Positions 3,752 through 16,850 of a stretch of 64,000 bases of DNA are shown here, one piece after another. Origin of the DNA: Gemmatimonadaceae bacterium (lineage in GTDB: Bacteria > Gemmatimonadota > Gemmatimonadetes > Gemmatimonadales > Gemmatimonadaceae); the NCBI GenBank assembly GCA_036504815.1, contig DASXUN010000025.1, positions 1 to 64,000 on the forward strand, given 5' to 3'. Under the pieces are notes generated by a model. It saw nothing but the letters and a program-made list of their open reading frames with translations, did no database searches and was not told the DNA's origin. The first letter of the stretch is position 1. Each line of letters starts with the position of its first letter. Position numbers and translations under genes: made by a program.

Positions 3752-6381
3752 GGCGTCGGCGCCGTATTTCGCAGGGCGCGACGGGCGAGCTCCGGCGCGT
3801 TCTGCAGGACGACGATCGTGTTCGCGGCGGCGCGGCGCGAGAAGACAAACCACGAACCGTCGGGCGAGACGTCGTAGTTCGCATGCGGCGTCGACGTGTC
3901 GAACTCCGAGACGTCGAACAGGCTCTGGCGCGCCGTAACGGTCGGCTCGGCTCCCATCGCAACCTTCGCCGCCACGAGTTCCCCGCCCTTGGCCGTGGGC
4001 CGGCGATAGAACAACTCGCCACCACTCCGCGACCACACGGGCTCCGTTCCCCCGTCCAGCGAGATCTGCAACTGCACGGTGCCGCCGGTCAGAGACCGCA
4101 CGTACACCTCGGGGCGACCGGATTGATCGGAGACGAAGGCGAACCAGCGGCGATCAGGCGAGGGAACCGGGTAGGTCTCGTCGGCCATGCTGTTGGCCAG
4201 CGTGTCCACGGTGGCCCGCCGTCCGGAGATGCGCGCAATGTCACCACCCCGCGTGCCCCGTCCAGGCACCGTGGTGAGGAAGGAGCCATCACCCAGCGGG
4301 ACTCCGGTGTACTCCGGAGCGATCGGAAAGCCCTCGGCCTTCGGTGGCGTCGTCGTGCCCGGCGCCGCATAGAAGACATCAAGCCGCCCGTTCGACCCGC
4401 CGAGGAAATAGAGGCCGCGTCCATCGCCGGACCAGACCGGGTCATGCGCATCCTTCTGGAATGTCGCCCGCGTCGCCTGCTTGGTGCCTACTGAGAGGAT
4501 GTAGACGTCCCGTCCGGCCGCCGTCGAGTTGTCGAAGGCGATCCGTTGACCGTCGGGGGCGATGCGCGGGCTGTGGTACCGACCCCGCTCCGCGTTCAAC
4601 ACCTGCACTGTGCCGTTGCGAGCGACGCGCACGAGATCGTTGTTGACGTCCGCGATGTAGGCCAGCGTTCCGTTTGCCGCCACGGCAAAGTGCGCGAAGC
4701 CCGCGCCGGCAACGCCGACGTCCTCGGCGAGCTCCACCGGCGTGCCCGTCACCCGGCGCGCATCGAGGTCGAGCGGAACGGCAATCAGCACGTTGTCGGG
4801 ACGCACGCAGAAGAGGAAGCCGCCGGCATAGCGCGCTTCGACGATAGTGATGTCGAGAAGCTGCGTTTTCGTCTTCGAACGCAGGTCGAGGAGCACGGGC
4901 GTGCCGCCGTTGTTCACCGTGCCGATCGCCACGCCAAGCGCCAGCCGGCCCCCAGGCAGCAGCTGCCCGAACGTCACCCTGTCTACGAGCAGCGAATCGC
5001 CCTTACCCGGTATGCCGTGGTGCAGGCCGTTCGCCAACCCGTCGCTCCAGTAGAAGCTCCCGTCGTCACCGAATCCGAGGAACGCAGTCGGTGGCAGCCC
5101 ATCGATCATCTCGGCGGCGCCGCCTGCGAGCGACATCCGCGCCATGCTGCCACCACCGCCGGAGTGATAGAGCGTCTTGCCATCAGGCGTGAGACGCGGA
5201 TTGCCCGCGGTGAGCGTGCCCGGAATCGGCGTCGCCTTGGCGCCGTCGAGGCGGCGCAGGAACAGTTGCGACACGCCGAGTTCCCGGTTTCCACTGAAGA
5301 TCAGCGTCTGCCCATCGGCCGACAGTTCGATCATGCGCACGGTGCCGCTGAACGTAGGCCGGATGTCCTTCTCGACGAGTGCGAGGCGCGAGGGCGGTGC
5401 GTCGGCCGGCCTCGAGCGCGTCGAGATCAGCCAGCCCGCCGCGCCGCTGAGCACGCCTACACCGACTGCCAGCGCAGCAACGCGGGTTCCCGTGCGCGCG
5501 CCGCGCGCATGCGCCGACCGACGTGCCCCGCGGCCGGCAGCGGTGGCAACGCCCTCGCCCTGCAGCGCCGACACGAATTCCGCCGCGCTGCCAAAGCGGT
5601 CGGCCGGCAGTTTCTCCAGCGCCGTGAGGATCGCCTCCTCCACCTCGGCGGCAACGCGCTCGCGGCGCGCGCGAATCGGCGCGGGCCGTTCGGTCAGCAC
5701 CTTGGCGACGATCGCCTGGGCCGTCGAACCGGTGAACGGCGCGTCGCCGGTGAGCATCTCGTAGAGCACACACCCCAGCGCGTACACGTCGGTGCGCGCA
5801 TCGAGGGTGCGTTCGCCCATCGCCTGTTCCGGGCTCATGTACGTCGGGGTCCCGAGCGACATCCCCGTCTCGGTCATCCGCGATCCACCGGTGCGCGCCG
5901 CCGCCAGCGCGATGCCAAAATCGGCGACCAACGCATGCCCACCCTGCAGCAGGATGTTCTCCGGCTTGATGTCACGATGGATCACGTCATGCGAGTGGGC
6001 GTGCTGCAAGGCGTCACCCACCTCGCGCGCGATGCGCAGTGCCTCGTCGACGGGCAGCTGCTTCTCGCGGGCGAGCCGATCGCGCAGCGTCTCGCCCTCC
6101 ACGTAGGGCATGACGTAGTAGACCGCCCCCCCGACCTCTCCCGAATCGAACAGCGCGAGGATGTGCGGATGCTGCAGGTTCGCCGTCAGCTTGATCTCGG
6201 CAAGGAACCGCTCGGCCCCGAGCACGGCAGCGAGTTCGGGCTTCAGCACCTTGAGCGCCACCTTGCGGTCGTGCTTCACATCGTGCGCCAGGTACACGGT
6301 GGCCATCCCGCCCGCCCCGAGCTCGCGCTCGATGCGGTAGCGGTCGGCGAGCGCCGCGGTCAAACGGTCCAACACGCTCAT
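3748..6381 (-). CDS. Membrane Ser/Thr protein kinase with C-terminal TolB-like beta-propeller (kinase 3 of operon)
   Basis: PknB-like Hanks kinase of 877 aa. The cytoplasmic kinase domain covers about residues 15-275: glycine loop GAGGMATVY at 22-30, ATP lysine K44, glutamate E62, HRDIKPEN with catalytic D137, DFG at 154-156 and SPEQ at the end of the activation segment, so it should be active. A single membrane helix spans about 301-320. The remaining 550 residues are extracytoplasmic and carry repeats like LSADGQTLIFSG and PDGKTLYHS, as in TolB/WD40-type propellers. The layout suggests a sensor reading a signal outside the inner membrane. It overlaps its neighbours by 4 bp on both sides. 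The ligand is unknown. Confidence 0.92.
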   Translation of the reverse strand: MSVLDRLTAALADRYRIERELGAGGMATVYLAHDVKHDRKVALKVLKPELAAVLGAERFLAEIKLTANLQHPHILALFDSGEVGGAVYYVMPYVEGETLRDRLAREKQLPVDEALRIAREVGDALQHAHSHDVIHRDIKPENILLQGGHALVADFGIALAAARTGGSRMTETGMSLGTPTYMSPEQAMGERTLDARTDVYALGCVLYEMLTGDAPFTGSTAQAIVAKVLTERPAPIRARRERVAAEVEEAILTALEKLPADRFGSAAEFVSALQGEGVATAAGRGARRSAHARGARTGTRVAALAVGVGVLSGAAGWLISTRSRPADAPPSRLALVEKDIRPTFSGTVRMIELSADGQTLIFSGNRELGVSQLFLRRLDGAKATPIPGTLTAGNPRLTPDGKTLYHSGGGGSMARMSLAGGAAEMIDGLPPTAFLGFGDDGSFYWSDGLANGLHHGIPGKGDSLLVDRVTFGQLLPGGRLALGVAIGTVNNGGTPVLLDLRSKTKTQLLDITIVEARYAGGFLFCVRPDNVLIAVPLDLDARRVTGTPVELAEDVGVAGAGFAHFAVAANGTLAYIADVNNDLVRVARNGTVQVLNAERGRYHSPRIAPDGQRIAFDNSTAAGRDVYILSVGTKQATRATFQKDAHDPVWSGDGRGLYFLGGSNGRLDVFYAAPGTTTPPKAEGFPIAPEYTGVPLGDGSFLTTVPGRGTRGGDIARISGRRATVDTLANSMADETYPVPSPDRRWFAFVSDQSGRPEVYVRSLTGGTVQLQISLDGGTEPVWSRSGGELFYRRPTAKGGELVAAKVAMGAEPTVTARQSLFDVSEFDTSTPHANYDVSPDGSWFVFSRRAAANTIVVLQNAPELARRALRNTAPTP

Positions 6382-8999
6382 GGCTTCACCTTCGTCTTGA
6401 GTTCGTCGAGCCAGTTGAGCACGACCGTGGTCGGCAGCGCGTCGGGACGATCAATCGGCACGACCACCAGGAAGCGCGACCCGTCGGGGAGCGCGTCATA
6501 ACCCGTGCTGCGCCCGCCGCTCAGGCGGCCAACGTCCTTGCGGCGGAACAGCACTGTGGGGGTTCCGACGTCGCCGGTGGACGAGTTGAAGGACGCGGCA
6601 AGCACGTCGGCGCCGTTGCGGAAGACGATCTCGCGCCCGCCGCGCGTAAAGCGCGGCTGGCTGCCGCCGCCCGTGGACACCTGGCGCCGCCCGCCCTCGC
6701 CATCGAACGCCTTCAGGTACACCTCGCTCGCCCCCTGCGGGTTCTGCGATTCATACGCCACCCAGCCGCCGTCCGGGGAGATGGAGGCACTGACCTGCGA
6801 TGACTCGCTCGGATCAAAGGGCGTGGCCGCTCCGGGGCCAAGCGGCGCACGCATGAGCACGTTGCGATCTCGCGACTCGGTGTACAGCATCGTCCGTCCG
6901 TCCGGTGAAACGGCAGTCGGCATCTTGTCATACTTCGAGACGCGCAGCGTATCCGCCTTGCCCCCATCAACCGGCAGGCGGCGCAGATCATAAACCGGCG
7001 TCTCCACGGAGTGGATCAGCGAGCGTCCGTCGGGCATCCAGACCGGGCTGAACGCGACGCCCTTGTCGTTGGTCAGCTGCGACAGCGCGCTGCGCGTGCG
7101 ATCATAGAGCCAGATTTGCCATCCCGGCTCAATCTTGGTGACGGCGATCCAGCGACCGTCCGGCGAGAGCCGCGGCTCGGCCCACTGCCCAGCCTCCGGC
7201 AACGCGGACTGCTCGTTGCCGGCGCGATCCACCCAGAGGACGCGACGATTGACCGTAGACTCGGAGGCCTTGAGATAGACGAGCGTGCCGGTCTGGGACA
7301 CTGCATATGCGGCCGATCCGTTCGTCGCCGACCAGACGACATCGGAGAGCACCGGCACTTCGGGACCCGTGACGCGGAGCGCCTTCGGGTCAAAGGGGAC
7401 CGCGAACACCGCGCCCTCGCGTGTATACAGCAGGTGGCCACTGGCCACGTACCGTGCGTAGATCGCGCCTTCCACCAGCACGGTGCGCTTGCCGCTGCCG
7501 TACTCTACCGCTTCGATGCGCGAGCGGCTGAGCGGCGTGGAGAAGGCGTTGAACAGGATCGCCTTCCCTCCCGGCAGTTCCTGCGGATTCCAGTGCGCGA
7601 ACTCGCGGCGCAGCGTGTCGAGCGAGGTGAGGCGCTCTGTCTTGCCGCCCGAGGCGCTTACGCGCCACAACCCGAGGCCCGGTTTCAGGAAGACGATCGT
7701 GCCGTTGGCACACCAGGCCACGCTGGCGTTGGACGAGTCGGCGACCAGCGTGGCCGGCCCCCCTGCCGTTGGCACCTTCCACAACTTGCCGCGCGCCCCG
7801 AAGGCGATCCACTGACCATCCAGCGAGAACTCGGGGGTGCCCGCGCCCTCGGTCCCCTCCACGACGGCAACGGCGGATGACGCGAGGTCGCGCACGACCA
7901 CGTGATCGACGCCAGCCGAGTCGGCGGCGATCTGGGCGATCTTCCGCCCGTCGGGCGAGATGGCGACCACTGCCGTCTGCAACCCGCCCGGCGCAAGTCG
8001 CAAGCTGAACTCGACTCGTCCAGTGCCGATGGACTGCGGCCTGCTTAGCGCCCACGCCGCGACCACCGCAAACACGACGGCGGCGGCTACGCCCGCGATT
8101 GCCACGCGACGCCACATGTTGGTCGGTGTGGCGCGGCCCGCAGCCGGTGCCGCGAGCCGCGCGTCGCCGCGCCCGTCGAGCGCCTCAGCGAATGCGGCCG
8201 CCGACGCGAAGCGATCGGCCGGCAGCTTGGCCAGCGCCGTCATCACCGCCGCTTCCACGTGCAACGGGATCGTCTTGCGCATCATCGACGGACGCTCGGC
8301 GTCGGCGTTCAGCACCTTCGCCACGATCGCCTGTACCGTCGAGCCCGTGAACGGCGCGTCGCCGGTGAGCATCTCATACGCCACGGCGCCGAGCGCGTAC
8401 ACGTCGCTGCGCGCGTCGATGGTCTTCTCACCCATCGCCTGCTCGGGACTCATGTACGACGGCGTGCCGAGGCTGAGCCCCGTCTGCGTCATCCGCTGGC
8501 CGCCGGCGGTCTGCACGGCGAGCGCGATGCCGAAGTCGGCCACGAGCGCGCTGCTGTCATGCAGCAGGATGTTCTCGGGTTTGATGTCGCGATGCACCAC
8601 GCCCTGGCGGTGCGCATAGTCGAGCGCGCTCGCTACCTCGCGCGCAATGCGCACGGCGTCGGCAATGGGGAGTTGATGCTCACGCTCAAGGCGTGCACGC
8701 AGCGTCTCGCCCGTGACCACCGGCATCACGTAGTAGAGAAGCCCATCCGCCTCGCCGCTGTCGAGGAGCGGGAGGATATGAGGGTGCTGCAGCCGCGCCG
8801 TCGTGCGGATCTCGCTCAGGAATCGTTCGCCGCCGAGCGCCGCGCCAAGATCGGGATGCAGCACCTTGATGGCGACATCGCGGTCGTGCTTGCGGTCGTG
8901 CGCCAGATAGACGGTGGCCATGCCGCCCGCACCGAGCTCGCGCTCGATGCGGTAGCGGTCGGCGAGGGCCGCTGAGAGTCGCGGCATCACCTCCGTCAT
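6378..8999 (-). CDS. Membrane Ser/Thr protein kinase with C-terminal TolB-like beta-propeller (kinase 2 of operon)
   Basis: Second paralogue, 873 aa, same architecture. Kinase domain at about 16-276 with GAGGMATVY, ATP lysine K45, HRDIKPEN with D138, DFG at 155-157 and the activation-segment end TPSYMSPEQ. A membrane helix lies at about 299-318, followed by a propeller-like region with repeats such as LSPDGRWIAV and SPDGRTMLYT. Kinase domains of the three genes are alike while the propellers differ clearly, suggesting duplication followed by divergence of the sensing part. Start and stop each overlap the adjoining kinase gene by ATGA, so the three products are probably made in coordinated amounts. 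Confidence 0.92.
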   Translation of the reverse strand: MTEVMPRLSAALADRYRIERELGAGGMATVYLAHDRKHDRDVAIKVLHPDLGAALGGERFLSEIRTTARLQHPHILPLLDSGEADGLLYYVMPVVTGETLRARLEREHQLPIADAVRIAREVASALDYAHRQGVVHRDIKPENILLHDSSALVADFGIALAVQTAGGQRMTQTGLSLGTPSYMSPEQAMGEKTIDARSDVYALGAVAYEMLTGDAPFTGSTVQAIVAKVLNADAERPSMMRKTIPLHVEAAVMTALAKLPADRFASAAAFAEALDGRGDARLAAPAAGRATPTNMWRRVAIAGVAAAVVFAVVAAWALSRPQSIGTGRVEFSLRLAPGGLQTAVVAISPDGRKIAQIAADSAGVDHVVVRDLASSAVAVVEGTEGAGTPEFSLDGQWIAFGARGKLWKVPTAGGPATLVADSSNASVAWCANGTIVFLKPGLGLWRVSASGGKTERLTSLDTLRREFAHWNPQELPGGKAILFNAFSTPLSRSRIEAVEYGSGKRTVLVEGAIYARYVASGHLLYTREGAVFAVPFDPKALRVTGPEVPVLSDVVWSATNGSAAYAVSQTGTLVYLKASESTVNRRVLWVDRAGNEQSALPEAGQWAEPRLSPDGRWIAVTKIEPGWQIWLYDRTRSALSQLTNDKGVAFSPVWMPDGRSLIHSVETPVYDLRRLPVDGGKADTLRVSKYDKMPTAVSPDGRTMLYTESRDRNVLMRAPLGPGAATPFDPSESSQVSASISPDGGWVAYESQNPQGASEVYLKAFDGEGGRRQVSTGGGSQPRFTRGGREIVFRNGADVLAASFNSSTGDVGTPTVLFRRKDVGRLSGGRSTGYDALPDGSRFLVVVPIDRPDALPTTVVLNWLDELKTKVKP

Positions 9000-11668
9000 T
9001 TCGACCTCGGCGACGTCAGCCGGCGCAGCTCGCTGAACCAGTTGTCCAGGATCAGGTATCGCGAGGGCTTTGCGCTCGAAGCGGTCGGCGCCGCTCCTCC
9101 GCCAGCCACCGCCACGATGAACCGCCGTCCATCGGGGTGGAGGTCCCAGTTATTGGTGCCGTCAGCATCCATCACGGCCACCACTTCCGGTGCGTGCACA
9201 ACCACGGTTGGCGTGCGGTCAATGCGCGACCGGAAGAGCGTGTCGAGCGGGGCGCCACTCCGCCAGAAGTAGACAAACTTGCCGTCCGGTGACCAGCGTG
9301 GTGTCCGCGCATCGCCGCGCGAGATGTTCCATTTCCCCTGCGGCACGGGAAAGTCCCGCATCCACACCTGCTGACCGCCGCTTTCGTCCGACGTGAAGGC
9401 GATCATCTTGCGGTCGGGAGAGAGATGCGGTTCCATCTCGTTGAAGGGCGACTTCAGGTACGGGACGGGAACGCTGCCGGCATCCGCGCCGATCGTGAAC
9501 GCGTCGTACCCACGATCTGGGGTGATGGCATCGAACAGCAGGGTCTTGTCATCAATCCACTGTTGCGCCCCGATTTCTCTCGAACCAAGAGTGGTCAGAC
9601 GTCGCTCGGGACCGCTGTTGTCGGCCGGCTTGATGTAGAGATCCTCCGACGAATTAGTGGAGCGCTTGTCGAACAGGATGTGCTTGCCATCCGGCGACCA
9701 GGCCGGCTCGTCGTTGTCTCCGTCGAACGTGAGCTGGGTGTACGTGCTCGTCACCAGGTCAAGCGTGTAGATGTCCGTCTCCCCACTGCGGGCGTCGGCA
9801 AACACCTCCGTCGCGATTGAGCGGCCGTCGCGGGAGAATCGCGGTTTCGCACGCCGTCCGGGCGGCAGCCGCACGGTGTCGGCCCCCTTCCCGGGATCGA
9901 CGATGACGAGGCGATTGACGGACGAGTTGCCCGTTCCCTCCGCGTCGTGCTGCACGAGCACGCCGGCGGCAGACACCGAGTACCCGCGTACATTGACGGT
10001 TCCTCCCACCCGCTCCAGCACGCGCACCGGCGCGCCGTCGACGCGGTGCTTCGCCAGGTCGAACTTGACCGCGAAGGTTCCGCCATCGGTGGTGTTGTAC
10101 AGGAGGTGTCCGGTCGGTACGTAGGCGGCCCCCGATCCACTCGGGATCAGCATCACCGACGAGTCGGTCTTGAAATCGTACAGCGAGACCTCACCGGAGA
10201 CCGAGTGCAGCACGCCGCTGCCGTCGGGCAACAGGAAGATCCTTCGGCTTTGCACCTTCGGCATGGGGACGGGCGCGCCGCCCGACGCCGAGACGCGCTG
10301 CGCGCCGGTAGGCCCGACGAAGACGATCTGGTCGGCCGTGCCCCAGTGCGGCCAGAAGGGATCGAACTTGCCCCCCGGCACCAGCGTGACCGCGCCACCG
10401 CCGCCCACGGAGATCTTCACCAGCGAACGATCGCTGTTCCTGCGAAAGACGATCCACTGGTTGTCCGGCGAGAAGGACGGCGCAACTCCAGTTTCTGTGC
10501 CGGCGATCTTGCGGAACTCCGGATCGCCGTCGAGATGACGCAGGTAGATCGCGCGCTCACCGCCGAGGTCGCCGGACAGCGCGATCATCGTCCCGTTCGG
10601 AGAGACCACGACTTCGCTGTTCGGATTCGGCGTGAGGGCGCCGAGATCGAGATCGAAGCGCCGTGCTGGCGGTTCCGGCGCGCGGCGCAGCCATCCCGCG
10701 GCTGCTCCGACGACCGCCACGGCCGCCACGGCCCAGGCCGCGAGCATCATCCGTCGTCCGCCCCAGCGCCCAACCGCAGTTCCTGCAGGCGTCGCCGACG
10801 TGACTCCCGCCGCCGCGATCGCGTACGAGTAGCCTTCGGTCCCCAGCGCATCGCGAAACGCCTTGGCGCTCTCGAACCGGTCGGCCGGCAGCTTCTCGAG
10901 CGCGCGCGCCACCGCTCCCACCACGTGGGGAGGCACCGTCTTCCGGTATTTCGTCACCGGCTCAACAGCCTCGGTGATGATCTTCATGATGATCTGCTGC
11001 ACCGTCGCGCCCGTATGCGGCGGATTGCCGGTCAGCATTTCGTAGAGCACCGTCGCCAGCGAGTACACGTCGGCCCGCGGCGTCAGGTCCTTCTCGGCTG
11101 TCGCCTGCTCGGGGCTCATGTAGTGCGGCGTGCCGAGGCTGAGGCCCGTCTCGGTCATGCGCCCGCCGGCCGCCGCGCTCACCGCCAGCGCGATGCCGAA
11201 GTCCATCACCATCGCGCGCCCGTCGTGCAGCAGGATGTTCTCGGGCTTGATGTCGCGGTGGATCACGCCGTGCCGGTGCGCGTAGTCGAGCGCGTCAGCC
11301 ACCTCGCGCGCGATGCGCACCGCTTCATCCACGCCGCACTGTGTCTCGCGGTTCAGCTTCTCGCGAATCGTCTCGCCCTCGATATAGGGCATGACATAGA
11401 ACAGGAAGCCGTCCGCGGTACCGCTGTCAAACAGCGGCAGGATATGCGGATGCTGCAGGCTCGCGGTCGTCTTGATCTCGACCACGAACCGCTCGGCGCC
11501 GAGCACCGCGGCCAGTTCGGGCTTCAGGACCTTCAAGGCGACCTTGCGATCGTGCTTGAGGTCGTCGGCGAGGAAGACGGTGGCCATGCCACCGGTGCCT
11601 AACTCTCGCTCGATGCAATAACGACCGGCGAGCGCGGCGGTGAGCCGATGCGCGAGGTCTGTAGTCAC
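8996..11668 (-). CDS. Membrane Ser/Thr protein kinase with C-terminal TolB-like beta-propeller (kinase 1, first gene of operon)
   Basis: First gene of the kinase-phosphatase operon, 890 aa from a GTG at 11666-11668. This start is chosen because GGAGG (11676-11680) sits 7 nt before it; an upstream in-frame ATG would add 39 unconserved residues. Kinase domain: GTGGMATVF near 24-32, K46, HRDIKPEN with D139, DFG at 156-158, SPEQ after the activation loop. A membrane helix follows near residue 310 (MMLAAWAVAAVAVVGAAAGW). The outer part has propeller repeats such as FSPDNQWIVF, WSPDGKHILF and LSPDRKMIAF. The glycine loop has Thr where its two paralogues have Ala. Confidence 0.92.
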   Translation of the reverse strand: MTTDLAHRLTAALAGRYCIERELGTGGMATVFLADDLKHDRKVALKVLKPELAAVLGAERFVVEIKTTASLQHPHILPLFDSGTADGFLFYVMPYIEGETIREKLNRETQCGVDEAVRIAREVADALDYAHRHGVIHRDIKPENILLHDGRAMVMDFGIALAVSAAAGGRMTETGLSLGTPHYMSPEQATAEKDLTPRADVYSLATVLYEMLTGNPPHTGATVQQIIMKIITEAVEPVTKYRKTVPPHVVGAVARALEKLPADRFESAKAFRDALGTEGYSYAIAAAGVTSATPAGTAVGRWGGRRMMLAAWAVAAVAVVGAAAGWLRRAPEPPARRFDLDLGALTPNPNSEVVVSPNGTMIALSGDLGGERAIYLRHLDGDPEFRKIAGTETGVAPSFSPDNQWIVFRRNSDRSLVKISVGGGGAVTLVPGGKFDPFWPHWGTADQIVFVGPTGAQRVSASGGAPVPMPKVQSRRIFLLPDGSGVLHSVSGEVSLYDFKTDSSVMLIPSGSGAAYVPTGHLLYNTTDGGTFAVKFDLAKHRVDGAPVRVLERVGGTVNVRGYSVSAAGVLVQHDAEGTGNSSVNRLVIVDPGKGADTVRLPPGRRAKPRFSRDGRSIATEVFADARSGETDIYTLDLVTSTYTQLTFDGDNDEPAWSPDGKHILFDKRSTNSSEDLYIKPADNSGPERRLTTLGSREIGAQQWIDDKTLLFDAITPDRGYDAFTIGADAGSVPVPYLKSPFNEMEPHLSPDRKMIAFTSDESGGQQVWMRDFPVPQGKWNISRGDARTPRWSPDGKFVYFWRSGAPLDTLFRSRIDRTPTVVVHAPEVVAVMDADGTNNWDLHPDGRRFIVAVAGGGAAPTASSAKPSRYLILDNWFSELRRLTSPRSK

Positions 11669-11747
11669 GACTGATCCTCCAGCAGCGCCATCTCCGGCGC
11701 GGGGGGTGCTGGCAACTAAGGGGGGGGCCTCGGTCGCGGAAGGCTCT

Positions 11748-11753
11748 ATTGTA
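11748..11753 (-). promoter_or_regulatory. Candidate -10 box for the kinase operon
   Basis: TACAAT on the minus strand, about 80 bp before the GTG of the first kinase gene, in the 209-bp gap shared with the divergent AarF-like gene. The expected -35 position holds only a poor match (TGGCAT, 17 bp away), so this is a moderate candidate. Confidence 0.35.
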
Positions 11754-11865
11754 AGGACCGGGGACCCCGCATGCCAGCACGGCACCCTCCGGCGGAGCCT
11801 CGGGCACGCCCTCAGCTCCGCGCGTTGAGGCCGCTCGACCCGAACTTCTGCCGCACCGGACGCGT

Positions 11866-13307: not shown

Positions 13308-13880
13308 ATGCGCCCCCTGGTTCTGATTGCGTTGACTGCCGCCGCCGCTGGCGCGCAGACGCCCGTTCCGCCCGCCGCCCAGCAGATCGCGGCCGCCGTG
13401 CTCCCCCTCCCCGCCGAAATGCGTGACGGCGCCATGGTGATGGGCTACAAGGAGCCGGGCAAGCTCGTCGTGCTGCGCGAGGGGAAGAACGCGATGCACT
13501 GCCTCGCGCTCTACGTGACGCGCCCCGACTTCCACGTCGCGTGCTATCACAAGAGCCTCGAACCGTTCATGGCCCGCGGGCGTGAACTGCGTGCCCAGGG
13601 CGTGACGGGGGCGAAGGTGGACAGTGTGCGCTTTTCGGAGATCAAGCGTGGCAAGCTCAAGATGCCGGTGCAGGGCTCGCTCTACACCGTGACCGCGAAG
13701 AAAGCCGACTTCGATCCCGCGACCGATGCCGTGAAGGATGCCGGGCTGCTGACGGTGCTGTACATGCCATACGCGACACCGGAGAGCATCGGCATCACGG
13801 CGACGCCGCGGGACTCCGGGCCGTGGCTGATGTTTCCGGGAACTCCGAAAGCGCACGTGATGATGAGCGGAAAGATGTAG
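13308..13880 (+). CDS. Secreted protein of unknown function
   Basis: 190 aa from the ATG at 13308, preceded by AGGA. The N-terminus MRPLVLIALTAAAAGAQTP looks like a Sec signal peptide ending in AxA before QTP. The frame is open further upstream, but that would bury the signal and overlap the end of the AarF-like gene. The mature part has two cysteines (MHCLALYV and HVACYH) about 20 residues apart that could form a disulphide. It has no family motif that I recognise. It is separated from the next gene by a strong hairpin. Confidence 0.75.
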   Translation: MRPLVLIALTAAAAGAQTPVPPAAQQIAAAVLPLPAEMRDGAMVMGYKEPGKLVVLREGKNAMHCLALYVTRPDFHVACYHKSLEPFMARGRELRAQGVTGAKVDSVRFSEIKRGKLKMPVQGSLYTVTAKKADFDPATDAVKDAGLLTVLYMPYATPESIGITATPRDSGPWLMFPGTPKAHVMMSGKM

Positions 13881-13915
13881 AGAGAGAAACAACGGAGAGA
13901 CAACAGAGAAACACC

Positions 13916-13943
13916 AGAGGGGCCCGGATTTCCGGGCCCCTCT
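13916..13943. terminator. Strong hairpin between convergent genes
   Basis: A perfect 13-bp inverted repeat, AGAGGGGCCCGGA / TCCGGGCCCCTCT, separated by TT and followed on the plus strand by TTCCTT. It lies 36 bp after the stop of the secreted-protein gene and 15 bp before the stop of the convergent fusion gene. It is probably a bidirectional terminator. Confidence 0.75.
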
Positions 13944-13957
13944 TTCCTTGCTGACGT

Positions 13958-15781
13958 CTATTTCTTGGCGGCGGGTTTCCGCGCGGCTTTCCGGGCCGGC
14001 TTCCTGGTCGGCTTCTTCACCGGCCTTCTCGCCGACTTCTTCGCAACTCGCTTTGCGACCTTCTTGGCCGGCTTTCTGGTCACCGTCTTCGCCGGCTTCT
14101 TTGCGACCTTCTTCTTCGCGGGCTTCGTCGCGGGCTTCTTGGTCGCCTTCTTCGCCGGCCTCTTGGTCACCTTCTTCGCCGGTTTCTTCGCAACGTTCTT
14201 CTTCACGGGCGTCTTTGCCGCGGGCGCGGCGACCTTGGCCACCGCCGCCTGCTGCCTGGCCGCGGCATCAAACGCGGCACGCGCGGCCTGCGCCGCCTCG
14301 ACCCCACCCTGCAGGAAGGCCATCACTTCTTCGGCGTGGCCGGCCGGGTTCACCTTCTCGAAGACGTGCTGCACGGCGCCGTCGGCGCCGATGATGTACG
14401 TGGTGCGCTGCACCCCCATGTACTTCTGCCCGTACAGCTGCTTCTCCACCCAGATGCCGAGCTGCTCGGCGAGCGCGTGCTGCTCGTCGACGAGCAGCGT
14501 GAAGGGCAGGTTGTACTTGGCCTTGAACTTCTGGTGGGACGCCACGCCGTCGGGCGAAATGCCGAGGATGACCGCGTCACCCGCGCTGAACCGGGGGAAG
14601 AGGTCGCGGAACTCGCACGATTCCATCGTGCAGCCGCTGGTGTCGTCCTTGGGGTAAAAGTACAAGATGACCGTCTTGCCGCGAAGCGACGAGAGGGTCA
14701 GCAGGTCGCCGGTGTCGGTCTGCAGCGTGAAGTCGATGACTGGCATGGGATGCTCGGGTCGAACGGTGAGCGGGAGGCTGCTGGGATCAACGCGATGCGC
14801 TATCGATTGGTACCACCGGACGACGCCGTCCGCCACCCGCTCGTCGCACGGACCGGGCCAGCCGAAGGTGGCCATCGGGTCGGTGCCCGCCGGCACCCGC
14901 TTGAACATGTGGCTCAGCCCGTCGAGGACCAGCAGGGTGCTCGGGCGAGCCGCGCGCGCCGCGTGCAGCCGCTCGGCGTCCTGCACCGTCACGTTCGCGT
15001 CGTCGCTCCCCTGCACGATGAGAACGGGCACGCCGACATCGGCGATTGTCGCGCAGGGATCGGTGGCGTCACTGTCGGCGAGATACTTGAGCCCTTCGGC
15101 GGGCATCATCGCGAGGCCGCCAACCCCGTACGGCTCCCTCGGATTCTTGTACCGCTCCGGAATGGCTTGGCCCGCGCGAATGGCCGCGATGACGGTGTCC
15201 ATTGCCTCGAGCCGAGCCTCGCGCTGATCGGCCGGCGCCTCACGCTCGATGCGCTCGCGCATCACGCCGAGGATGCCGACCGCCGGACCGGCCAGCAGTG
15301 CCAGGCCGGCGGCGCGCGCCTCGTCGGGATGCTCCGCGACCAGTCGGCTTGCGACCACCGCGCCCTCGCTGTGCCCGCTCACGATCACCGGCACATCGAG
15401 CCCGCCGTCATCCAGCACGGACCGCAGCAGCGTCAGGGCCGCGCGGGCGATCGTCACGCGACCGTCCCACGTGCGGTGCCGGTCCCACTCGCCCTGGTCC
15501 TCGACCACGCTCCCCGTCCCCGGTCCGGCCTTGGCGTATCGCAGGACGGCGATGCCTCGCTCGGCCAGCTGATGCGCGAGGTAGGCGTTCGTCCCCGGAT
15601 ACGAATTCCACGAGGGGAAGTCACCGTTGACGTCGCAGAACAGCGAGCCCGGGATGAGCAGCAGCGCCGCCGTCGCTGGACGCGCCGTTGGTGTGGTGAA
15701 CGCCGCGGGGATCGCCAACCCGCTGGCGCGCAACACCAATGAGCGCTCGGCGACGCCGTGCGGAAGTGGATACTCCGCCAT
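13958..15781 (-). CDS. Three-part fusion: alpha/beta-hydrolase, BCP-type peroxiredoxin, histone-H1-like basic tail
   Basis: 607 aa in one uninterrupted frame. Residues 1-335 form an alpha/beta-hydrolase: nucleophile motif GHSEG (S138), acid region GSDD (about 259-262), histidine in LSHMF (H291). Residues 346-500 form a BCP/PrxQ peroxiredoxin reducing hydroperoxides: SGCTMESCEF gives peroxidatic C384 and resolving C389 five residues apart, as in BCP. Residues 523-607 contain about 40 Lys/Arg, no Asp/Glu, and PAKK-like repeats resembling histone-H1 tails. The start ATG at 15779-15781 follows AGGGGG and lies 10 bp behind argF. The peroxiredoxin begins with Met346 (ATG at 14744-14746), so internal initiation could also make it alone. 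The linkage is seen; DNA or RNA binding by the tail is inference. Confidence 0.85.
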   Translation of the reverse strand: MAEYPLPHGVAERSLVLRASGLAIPAAFTTPTARPATAALLLIPGSLFCDVNGDFPSWNSYPGTNAYLAHQLAERGIAVLRYAKAGPGTGSVVEDQGEWDRHRTWDGRVTIARAALTLLRSVLDDGGLDVPVIVSGHSEGAVVASRLVAEHPDEARAAGLALLAGPAVGILGVMRERIEREAPADQREARLEAMDTVIAAIRAGQAIPERYKNPREPYGVGGLAMMPAEGLKYLADSDATDPCATIADVGVPVLIVQGSDDANVTVQDAERLHAARAARPSTLLVLDGLSHMFKRVPAGTDPMATFGWPGPCDERVADGVVRWYQSIAHRVDPSSLPLTVRPEHPMPVIDFTLQTDTGDLLTLSSLRGKTVILYFYPKDDTSGCTMESCEFRDLFPRFSAGDAVILGISPDGVASHQKFKAKYNLPFTLLVDEQHALAEQLGIWVEKQLYGQKYMGVQRTTYIIGADGAVQHVFEKVNPAGHAEEVMAFLQGGVEAAQAARAAFDAAARQQAAVAKVAAPAAKTPVKKNVAKKPAKKVTKRPAKKATKKPATKPAKKKVAKKPAKTVTRKPAKKVAKRVAKKSARRPVKKPTRKPARKAARKPAAKK

Positions 15782-15791
15782 GTGCCGCCCC

Positions 15792-16850
<1,059 letters not shown>

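Follow-up and report, generated by a model that had tools for sequence, protein, structure and literature searches.

A PrxQ-type peroxiredoxin with a conserved histone-H1-like tail, joined to a hydrolase in one Gemmatimonadaceae genome

Results

Organization of the locus

The window analyzed here is a stretch of 64,000 nucleotides from a Gemmatimonadaceae bacterium (GCA_036504815.1, contig DASXUN010000025.1), whose genome is designated G000 in a comparison that took in 11 genomes of the genus. On the minus strand, a single frame of 607 codons plus a stop runs from an ATG at 15781 to a stop codon at 13958–13960 (13958–15781) and, as a preliminary description of this DNA had proposed, joins an α/β-hydrolase, a PrxQ/BCP peroxiredoxin, and a basic tail. 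Both enzyme domains were recognized when Pfam profiles were run on the fusion (Hydrolase_4, E = 3e-10; AhpC-TSA, E = 1e-34).

The minus-strand gene order is hslU, argF, and the fusion, and the convergent plus strand carries a gene for a small unknown protein (ending at 13880) and a UbiB/ABC1-like gene. The order hslU-argF-prxQ-unknown-ubiB was conserved in the genus (11 genomes), and argF lay beside prxQ in much of the family; the G001 assembly is without argF and prxQ. The argF product (15792–16850, minus strand) is an ornithine carbamoyltransferase (OTC) that matched TIGR00658 over its cut-off, at 386.8 bits. Only 10 nt separate the end of argF from the hydrolase start codon, and the stretch GGGGGCGG directly after the argF stop is likely to be a ribosome site for the hydrolase. 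Past the peroxiredoxin stop, reading by eye revealed a terminator-like GC-rich hairpin and T run (13915–13950, no strand assigned), and such an element also follows most peroxiredoxin orthologues in the genus. Elsewhere in the window, three tandem protein-kinase genes with WD/TolB-like C-terminal halves, ~40% identical, occupy 3844–11785 on the minus strand.

The peroxiredoxin core

Profiles, PDB matches, and alignment identified residues 346–491 (14309–14746, minus strand) as a PrxQ/BCP core. The AhpC-TSA profile PF00578 scored 119 bits against a cut-off of 26, the closest PDB matches were BCPs with E-values down to 4e-36, and the core was confident in an AlphaFold model of the peroxiredoxin plus tail, which was modeled separately from the hydrolase half. 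The segment SGCTMESC at residues 382–389 contains the peroxidatic Cys384 and, five residues later, the resolving Cys389, both conserved in the genus, and the PxxxTxxC motif and a conserved arginine (Pro32, Thr36, Cys39, and Arg114 in the numbering of the peroxiredoxin piece) were invariant among 35 homologues. The BCP domain thus looks intact, as first described, and we infer peroxidase activity. The NCBIfam equivalog PRK09437 (thioredoxin-dependent thiol peroxidase; cut-off 140 bits) was missed by both the fusion (132.1 bits) and the peroxiredoxin piece (135.7 bits); membership in the PrxQ family, as assigned here, rests on fold and motif, and the equivalog is not claimed. The AhpC-TSA fold, the PxxxTxxC motif, and the cysteine spacing are shared with E. 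coli Bcp, Deinococcus DR0846, and the structures 5enu and 3gkn. DR0846 is a mainly monomeric PrxQ with two cysteines that acts as both peroxidase and chaperone (PMC6590489). Most PrxQ enzymes stop directly after the core, whereas the present protein adds a helix and an H1-like tail behind it and a hydrolase in front. The sole other peroxiredoxin-like match in this genome showed 28% identity, and the tailed protein is, as judged by sequence, the only close PrxQ-type peroxidase that the genome encodes.

Basic tails of the peroxiredoxin and its neighbor

An Ala-rich helix, kept across the genus in our alignment, spans residues 494–518 (14228–14302, minus strand; helix 149–173 of the modeled peroxiredoxin-plus-tail piece) and lies between the core and the tail. 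The last 85 residues (13961–14215, minus strand) comprise 32 Lys, 8 Arg, and no Asp or Glu, as previously reported, and form the long K/A/P-rich, acid-free repeats by which H1-like tails are recognized; AlphaFold modeled them with low confidence and without structure. This tail is not a chance open frame, because the runner-up Lys-rich, stop-free stretch of 85 residues in any of the six frames of the whole 64-kb window has just 11 Lys. The encoding DNA contains tandem repeats with periods of about 12 and 24 nt, and its GC content is 63%; Lys codons are kept even though the remainder of the gene has 69% GC. The Hc2 profile PF07382 produced no match to the tail and only two matches below threshold at other places in the genome, and assignment of the tail to Hc2 was dropped.

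All nine of the complete peroxiredoxins in the genus (G000, G002, G003, G004, and G006–G010) have a basic C-terminal region. Measured from the end of the core and including the linker, these regions are 91–127 residues long and contain 33–49 Lys or Arg and 1–4 Asp or Glu; they vary in their pattern of PAKK, VVKK, and AAKK elements, not in composition, and share a -KK end. By these comparisons, the tail is real and conserved throughout the genus. In G005, the peroxiredoxin gene is broken after 34 codons (contig L098, about 4950–5050, C60) at a point where GC content changes from ~0.68 to 0.56, reflecting either inserted foreign DNA or a chimeric contig.

Comparison of OTC sequences showed that the neighboring enzyme also carries a basic tail (about residues 309–352; 15795–15926, minus strand), which is specific to the genus. 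K/R-rich extensions past the ordinary enzyme end were present in 10 of 10 OTCs from the genus, reaching about 70 residues in G002, and were missing from 19 of 20 OTCs from outside it, the exception (L251, G046) having a short basic end. If the OTC and peroxiredoxin tails were recent copies of each other, then tails from one genome should resemble each other most, an expectation unsupported by the fractions of shared 10-mers (0.044 within genomes and 0.059 between genomes). This result favors a shared selection for composition over recent copying.

We also estimated the frequency of basic tails on about 1.14 Mb of the genome, roughly a third of the total. About seven likely genes with such segments were present in this sample, which rules out basic tails as a general feature of the proteome. 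Among the tailed genes are SWIB-domain-like, TfoX-N-like, and phasin-like members, named by inspection of their sequences and not by a family match above cut-off. The SWIB-domain-like protein (L256:18097–18729; G000, C21) has its histone-like AAKKPAKK segment at the N terminus. The TfoX-N-like gene and an SRPBCC/AHSA1-like gene, both with basic tails, lie 2–3 kb apart (L291:10321–10776 and L291:13056–13730; G000, C30), so that tailed genes are again close together, as with argF and prxQ. A bipolar protein, very acidic in its first half and followed by a long half of KPAA/AKKA repeats, was found in two genera (L109:6792–7538 in G000, C21; L131:17749–18822 in G031) and had no NCBIfam match.

The tandem repeats in the tail DNA, together with the proximity of argF to prxQ and of the two L291 genes to each other, all tailed as if the tails had arisen locally, are what one would expect if the tail were a near-neutral, low-complexity addition generated by slippage of 12- and 24-nt repeats and affecting only charge or solubility. 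We regard this explanation as quite unlikely. Nine species keep a K/R-rich and nearly acid-free composition despite differing repeats, the OTC and peroxiredoxin tails are not more alike within genomes than between them, and, as described below, basic extensions of PrxQ also occur in unrelated lineages.

The hydrolase and its junction with the peroxiredoxin

Residues 1–325 (14807–15781, minus strand) form an S33-like α/β-hydrolase of the Hydrolase_4 family, with a GxSxG elbow and a Ser-Asp-His triad on the predicted fold (AlphaFold pLDDT 93.5). The elbow is GHSEG at residues 136–140, and Ser138, Asp261, and His291 were invariant among 16 homologues, in keeping with the intact domain originally proposed. 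A structure search with the hydrolase model retrieved feruloyl and further acyl esterases, along with related hydrolases, at identities of 14–20%, and the esterase EstD model NF041096 scored 56–59 bits against a cut-off of 600. A further suggestion, that the hydrolase acts on oxidized or peroxidized esters, gained no specific support from this generic set of acyl and feruloyl esterases.

A linker of 22 codons (residues 324–345; 14747–14812, minus strand) connects the two enzymes, as defined by the junction sequence and its likeness to the leader between the OTC and peroxiredoxin genes. Met346, which opens the sequence MPVIDFTL, coincides in the genus comparison with the codon at which most sister genomes begin a stand-alone peroxiredoxin gene and is, on this evidence, the ancestral peroxiredoxin start codon rather than an accidental internal methionine. 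The linker probably represents what was once the peroxiredoxin leader, now read as protein. When it was compared with intergenic OTC-peroxiredoxin leaders, p was ≤0.001 for G005, 0.011 for G004, and 0.07 for G008, so homology is clear with G005 alone and suggestive with G004 and G008. On inspection by eye, a sigma-54-like appearance of the leader was discounted, as the spacing is wrong.

Multiple observations bear on whether the three-part protein is a conserved design. First, G007 has a 72%-identical hydrolase at this position, encoded by a gene of its own that ends in TGA, with the peroxiredoxin starting farther on; the preliminary description had held that homologues encoded by separate genes would point to a local fusion or an assembly artefact, and for the hydrolase that is the arrangement found. 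Second, the hydrolase is absent from the locus in 8 other genomes of the genus in which the locus is present. Third, the hydrolase-peroxiredoxin order was not found among 60 relatives, 11 genus genomes, and 55 contigs from related genomes. Finally, both alternative frames of the linker reach stops at the fourth and eighth codons past the conserved end of the hydrolase, and the G007 hydrolase stops 9 residues past that end, near these alternative-frame stops. A single indel, biological or technical, could therefore make or break the fusion. We treat the fusion as private to this genome, the product of a recent event or an error rather than a conserved design. Read-through is its likely origin, and the union of hydrolase and peroxiredoxin may be accidental.

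The same frames also allow an assembly or sequencing error, in which case the true genes would be separate as in G007; this possibility concerns the hydrolase only and is compatible with the explanation of the tail that we favor. A single indel would yield two genes, given the stops in both other linker frames, and the fusion is confined to one assembly, but the frame is otherwise clean with both domains in register, and the 31 contigs of the assembly reach 99.4% completeness. We consider an error improbable. Far less credible is the view that selection has favored the whole protein as a multifunctional enzyme whose hydrolase and peroxidase would act together on oxidized esters at membranes or DNA. 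In its favor, no stop interrupts the 22-residue linker, both domains are intact, and the ribosome-site-like stretch stands at the hydrolase start beside the OTC stop; against this, no other genome has the fusion, G007 has two adjacent genes, 8 genomes of the genus have no hydrolase at the locus, and the esterase-like fold offers no pointer to a specific substrate. G000 and G007, the bearers of the hydrolase, do not group as sisters in the locus tree, which speaks against a single gain followed by plain descent and implies either loss of the hydrolase in several species or two gains.

Basic extensions in other PrxQ proteins

We searched 298 Gemmatimonadota genomes, of which 170 had a close match, and fetched and read part of these matches. 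Alignments that reached the end of the tail with zero or one stop came essentially from this genus only. Among the fetched Gemmatimonadota sequences from outside the genus, one had a C-terminal tail (G300, 48 residues; L162) and one had an N-terminal basic extension (G027; L014), and nearly all other PrxQ proteins sampled from the phylum are, by sequence, without a tail. N-terminal H1-like extensions of PrxQ were also present on a Bdellovibrionales contig (L050), in short form in a deltaproteobacterium (L063), and on alphaproteobacterial and Marinimicrobia-labeled contigs (L054, L057, L059, and L176). In a tree of 107 PrxQ cores, where the peroxiredoxins of the genus formed a clade with SH-aLRT support of 98, parsimony required at least six state changes for basic extensions at either end. 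This count speaks against one common origin of the extended forms. Strong support is confined to a few of the deep forks, however, and fewer origins would be compatible with the starred branches alone. The sample is uneven, and frequencies in the alphaproteobacterial set are biased because an extended query was used to find it; the tree shows that basic extensions recur, not how often.

Discussion

The tail probably fastens the enzyme to a negatively charged polymer, whether DNA or another. We lean toward a model in which PrxQ is held on the nucleoid by a disordered tail that anchors it to a polyanion, and in which the hydrolase is a separate gene after argF that became fused by read-through here only. 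The functional unit would be the tailed peroxiredoxin, residues 346–607: an atypical 2-Cys PrxQ with peroxidatic Cys384 and resolving Cys389, presumably reduced by thioredoxin, whose core would lead through the Ala-rich helix into a disordered, H1-like tail with a charge of roughly +40. Most likely, this tail would bind nucleic acid without sequence specificity and place PrxQ on the nucleoid, where it would lower H2O2 and organic peroxides beside DNA and its bound iron. In this genome only, the hydrolase gene after argF would have lost its stop, so that reading continues in frame through the old peroxiredoxin leader. In the fused protein, whose expression we infer, the hydrolase would be a covalent passenger esterase, and a shorter peroxiredoxin, as the preliminary description envisaged, may still be started at Met346.

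Tails of the same kind, with AKKA/PAKK repeats, occur in HbhA and HupB of Mycobacterium, in AlgP of Pseudomonas, and in Hc2-like proteins. The bodies of those proteins are structural or regulatory, whereas the present body is a predicted peroxidase and its tail is unseen by the HC2 model. The K/P/A tail of HbhA is necessary and sufficient for DNA binding, the HupB extension is reported to act in a similar way, and tails of the HbhA type also associate with sulfated glycans (PMC10665949). The H1-like tail protein AlgP binds DNA and associates with polyphosphate granules (PMC9239181). The earlier proposal of a peroxidase fixed to DNA or RNA fares reasonably well in this light. The tail is present throughout the genus, basic extensions recur in other lineages, and a tail of similar composition suffices for DNA binding in HbhA, making nucleic-acid anchoring the most plausible reading. 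Nucleic acid is not the sole candidate partner, given the association of similar tails with polyphosphate granules in AlgP and with sulfated glycans in HbhA.

The neighboring OTC counts against DNA protection, because such a role leaves the tail of this biosynthetic enzyme unexplained. The strongest rival model, which also suits a tailed OTC, is that the tails fix both OTC and the peroxiredoxin on polyphosphate granules, or at an interface between polyphosphate and nucleoid, and not on DNA as such. Gemmatimonas aurantiaca accumulates polyphosphate. AlgP, with its KPAA-rich H1-like tail, sits with polyphosphate granules and needs the tail for granule positioning (PMC9239181), and anchoring of this kind fits a tailed metabolic enzyme better than DNA protection does. 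On the other side, our analysis found no sign of polyphosphate for this genus, and AlgP is itself described as DNA-binding. We judge polyphosphate anchoring to be unlikely, although it is the main rival to anchoring on the nucleoid.

Other enzymes remove peroxide near DNA. Yeast keeps a BCP-type peroxiredoxin, Dot5/nTpx, together with its DNA in the nucleus (PMC2688748). The structure of Dot5, PDB 2a4v, was detected by sequence (E = 3e-11), and this enzyme resembles the proposed arrangement in placing a PrxQ near DNA. To our knowledge, this eukaryotic enzyme depends on nuclear import rather than direct anchoring and has no long PAKK tail. Dps removes peroxide while bound to DNA, in many cases by way of a Lys-rich terminus. 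The likeness to a DNA-held PrxQ is one of concept, as fold and chemistry are unrelated (ferroxidase versus thiol peroxidase) and the tailed PrxQ is not a Dps member. The open-access literature that we searched, a scope outside which most subscription papers fall, yielded no account of a bacterial peroxiredoxin with an H1-like tail.

The comparison of genomes does not support a three-part design, and the idea of a DNA-anchored peroxidase gains support as a plausible one. A broader and more tentative proposal is that PrxQ has repeatedly become tethered to the nucleoid or another polyanion by an H1-like tail at either end and that, in this genus, argF and prxQ products were co-recruited to one shared polyanion phase. 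Should the tail act as an anchor, the genus would possess a catalytic peroxide scavenger on its chromosome, a counterpart of Dps that works through thiols. The tail on the adjacent and unrelated OTC suggests that such tails can bring metabolic enzymes to a polyanion phase, be it nucleoid or polyphosphate, and recurrence across lineages would make it testable that the position of a peroxidase, and not its rate alone, protects DNA.
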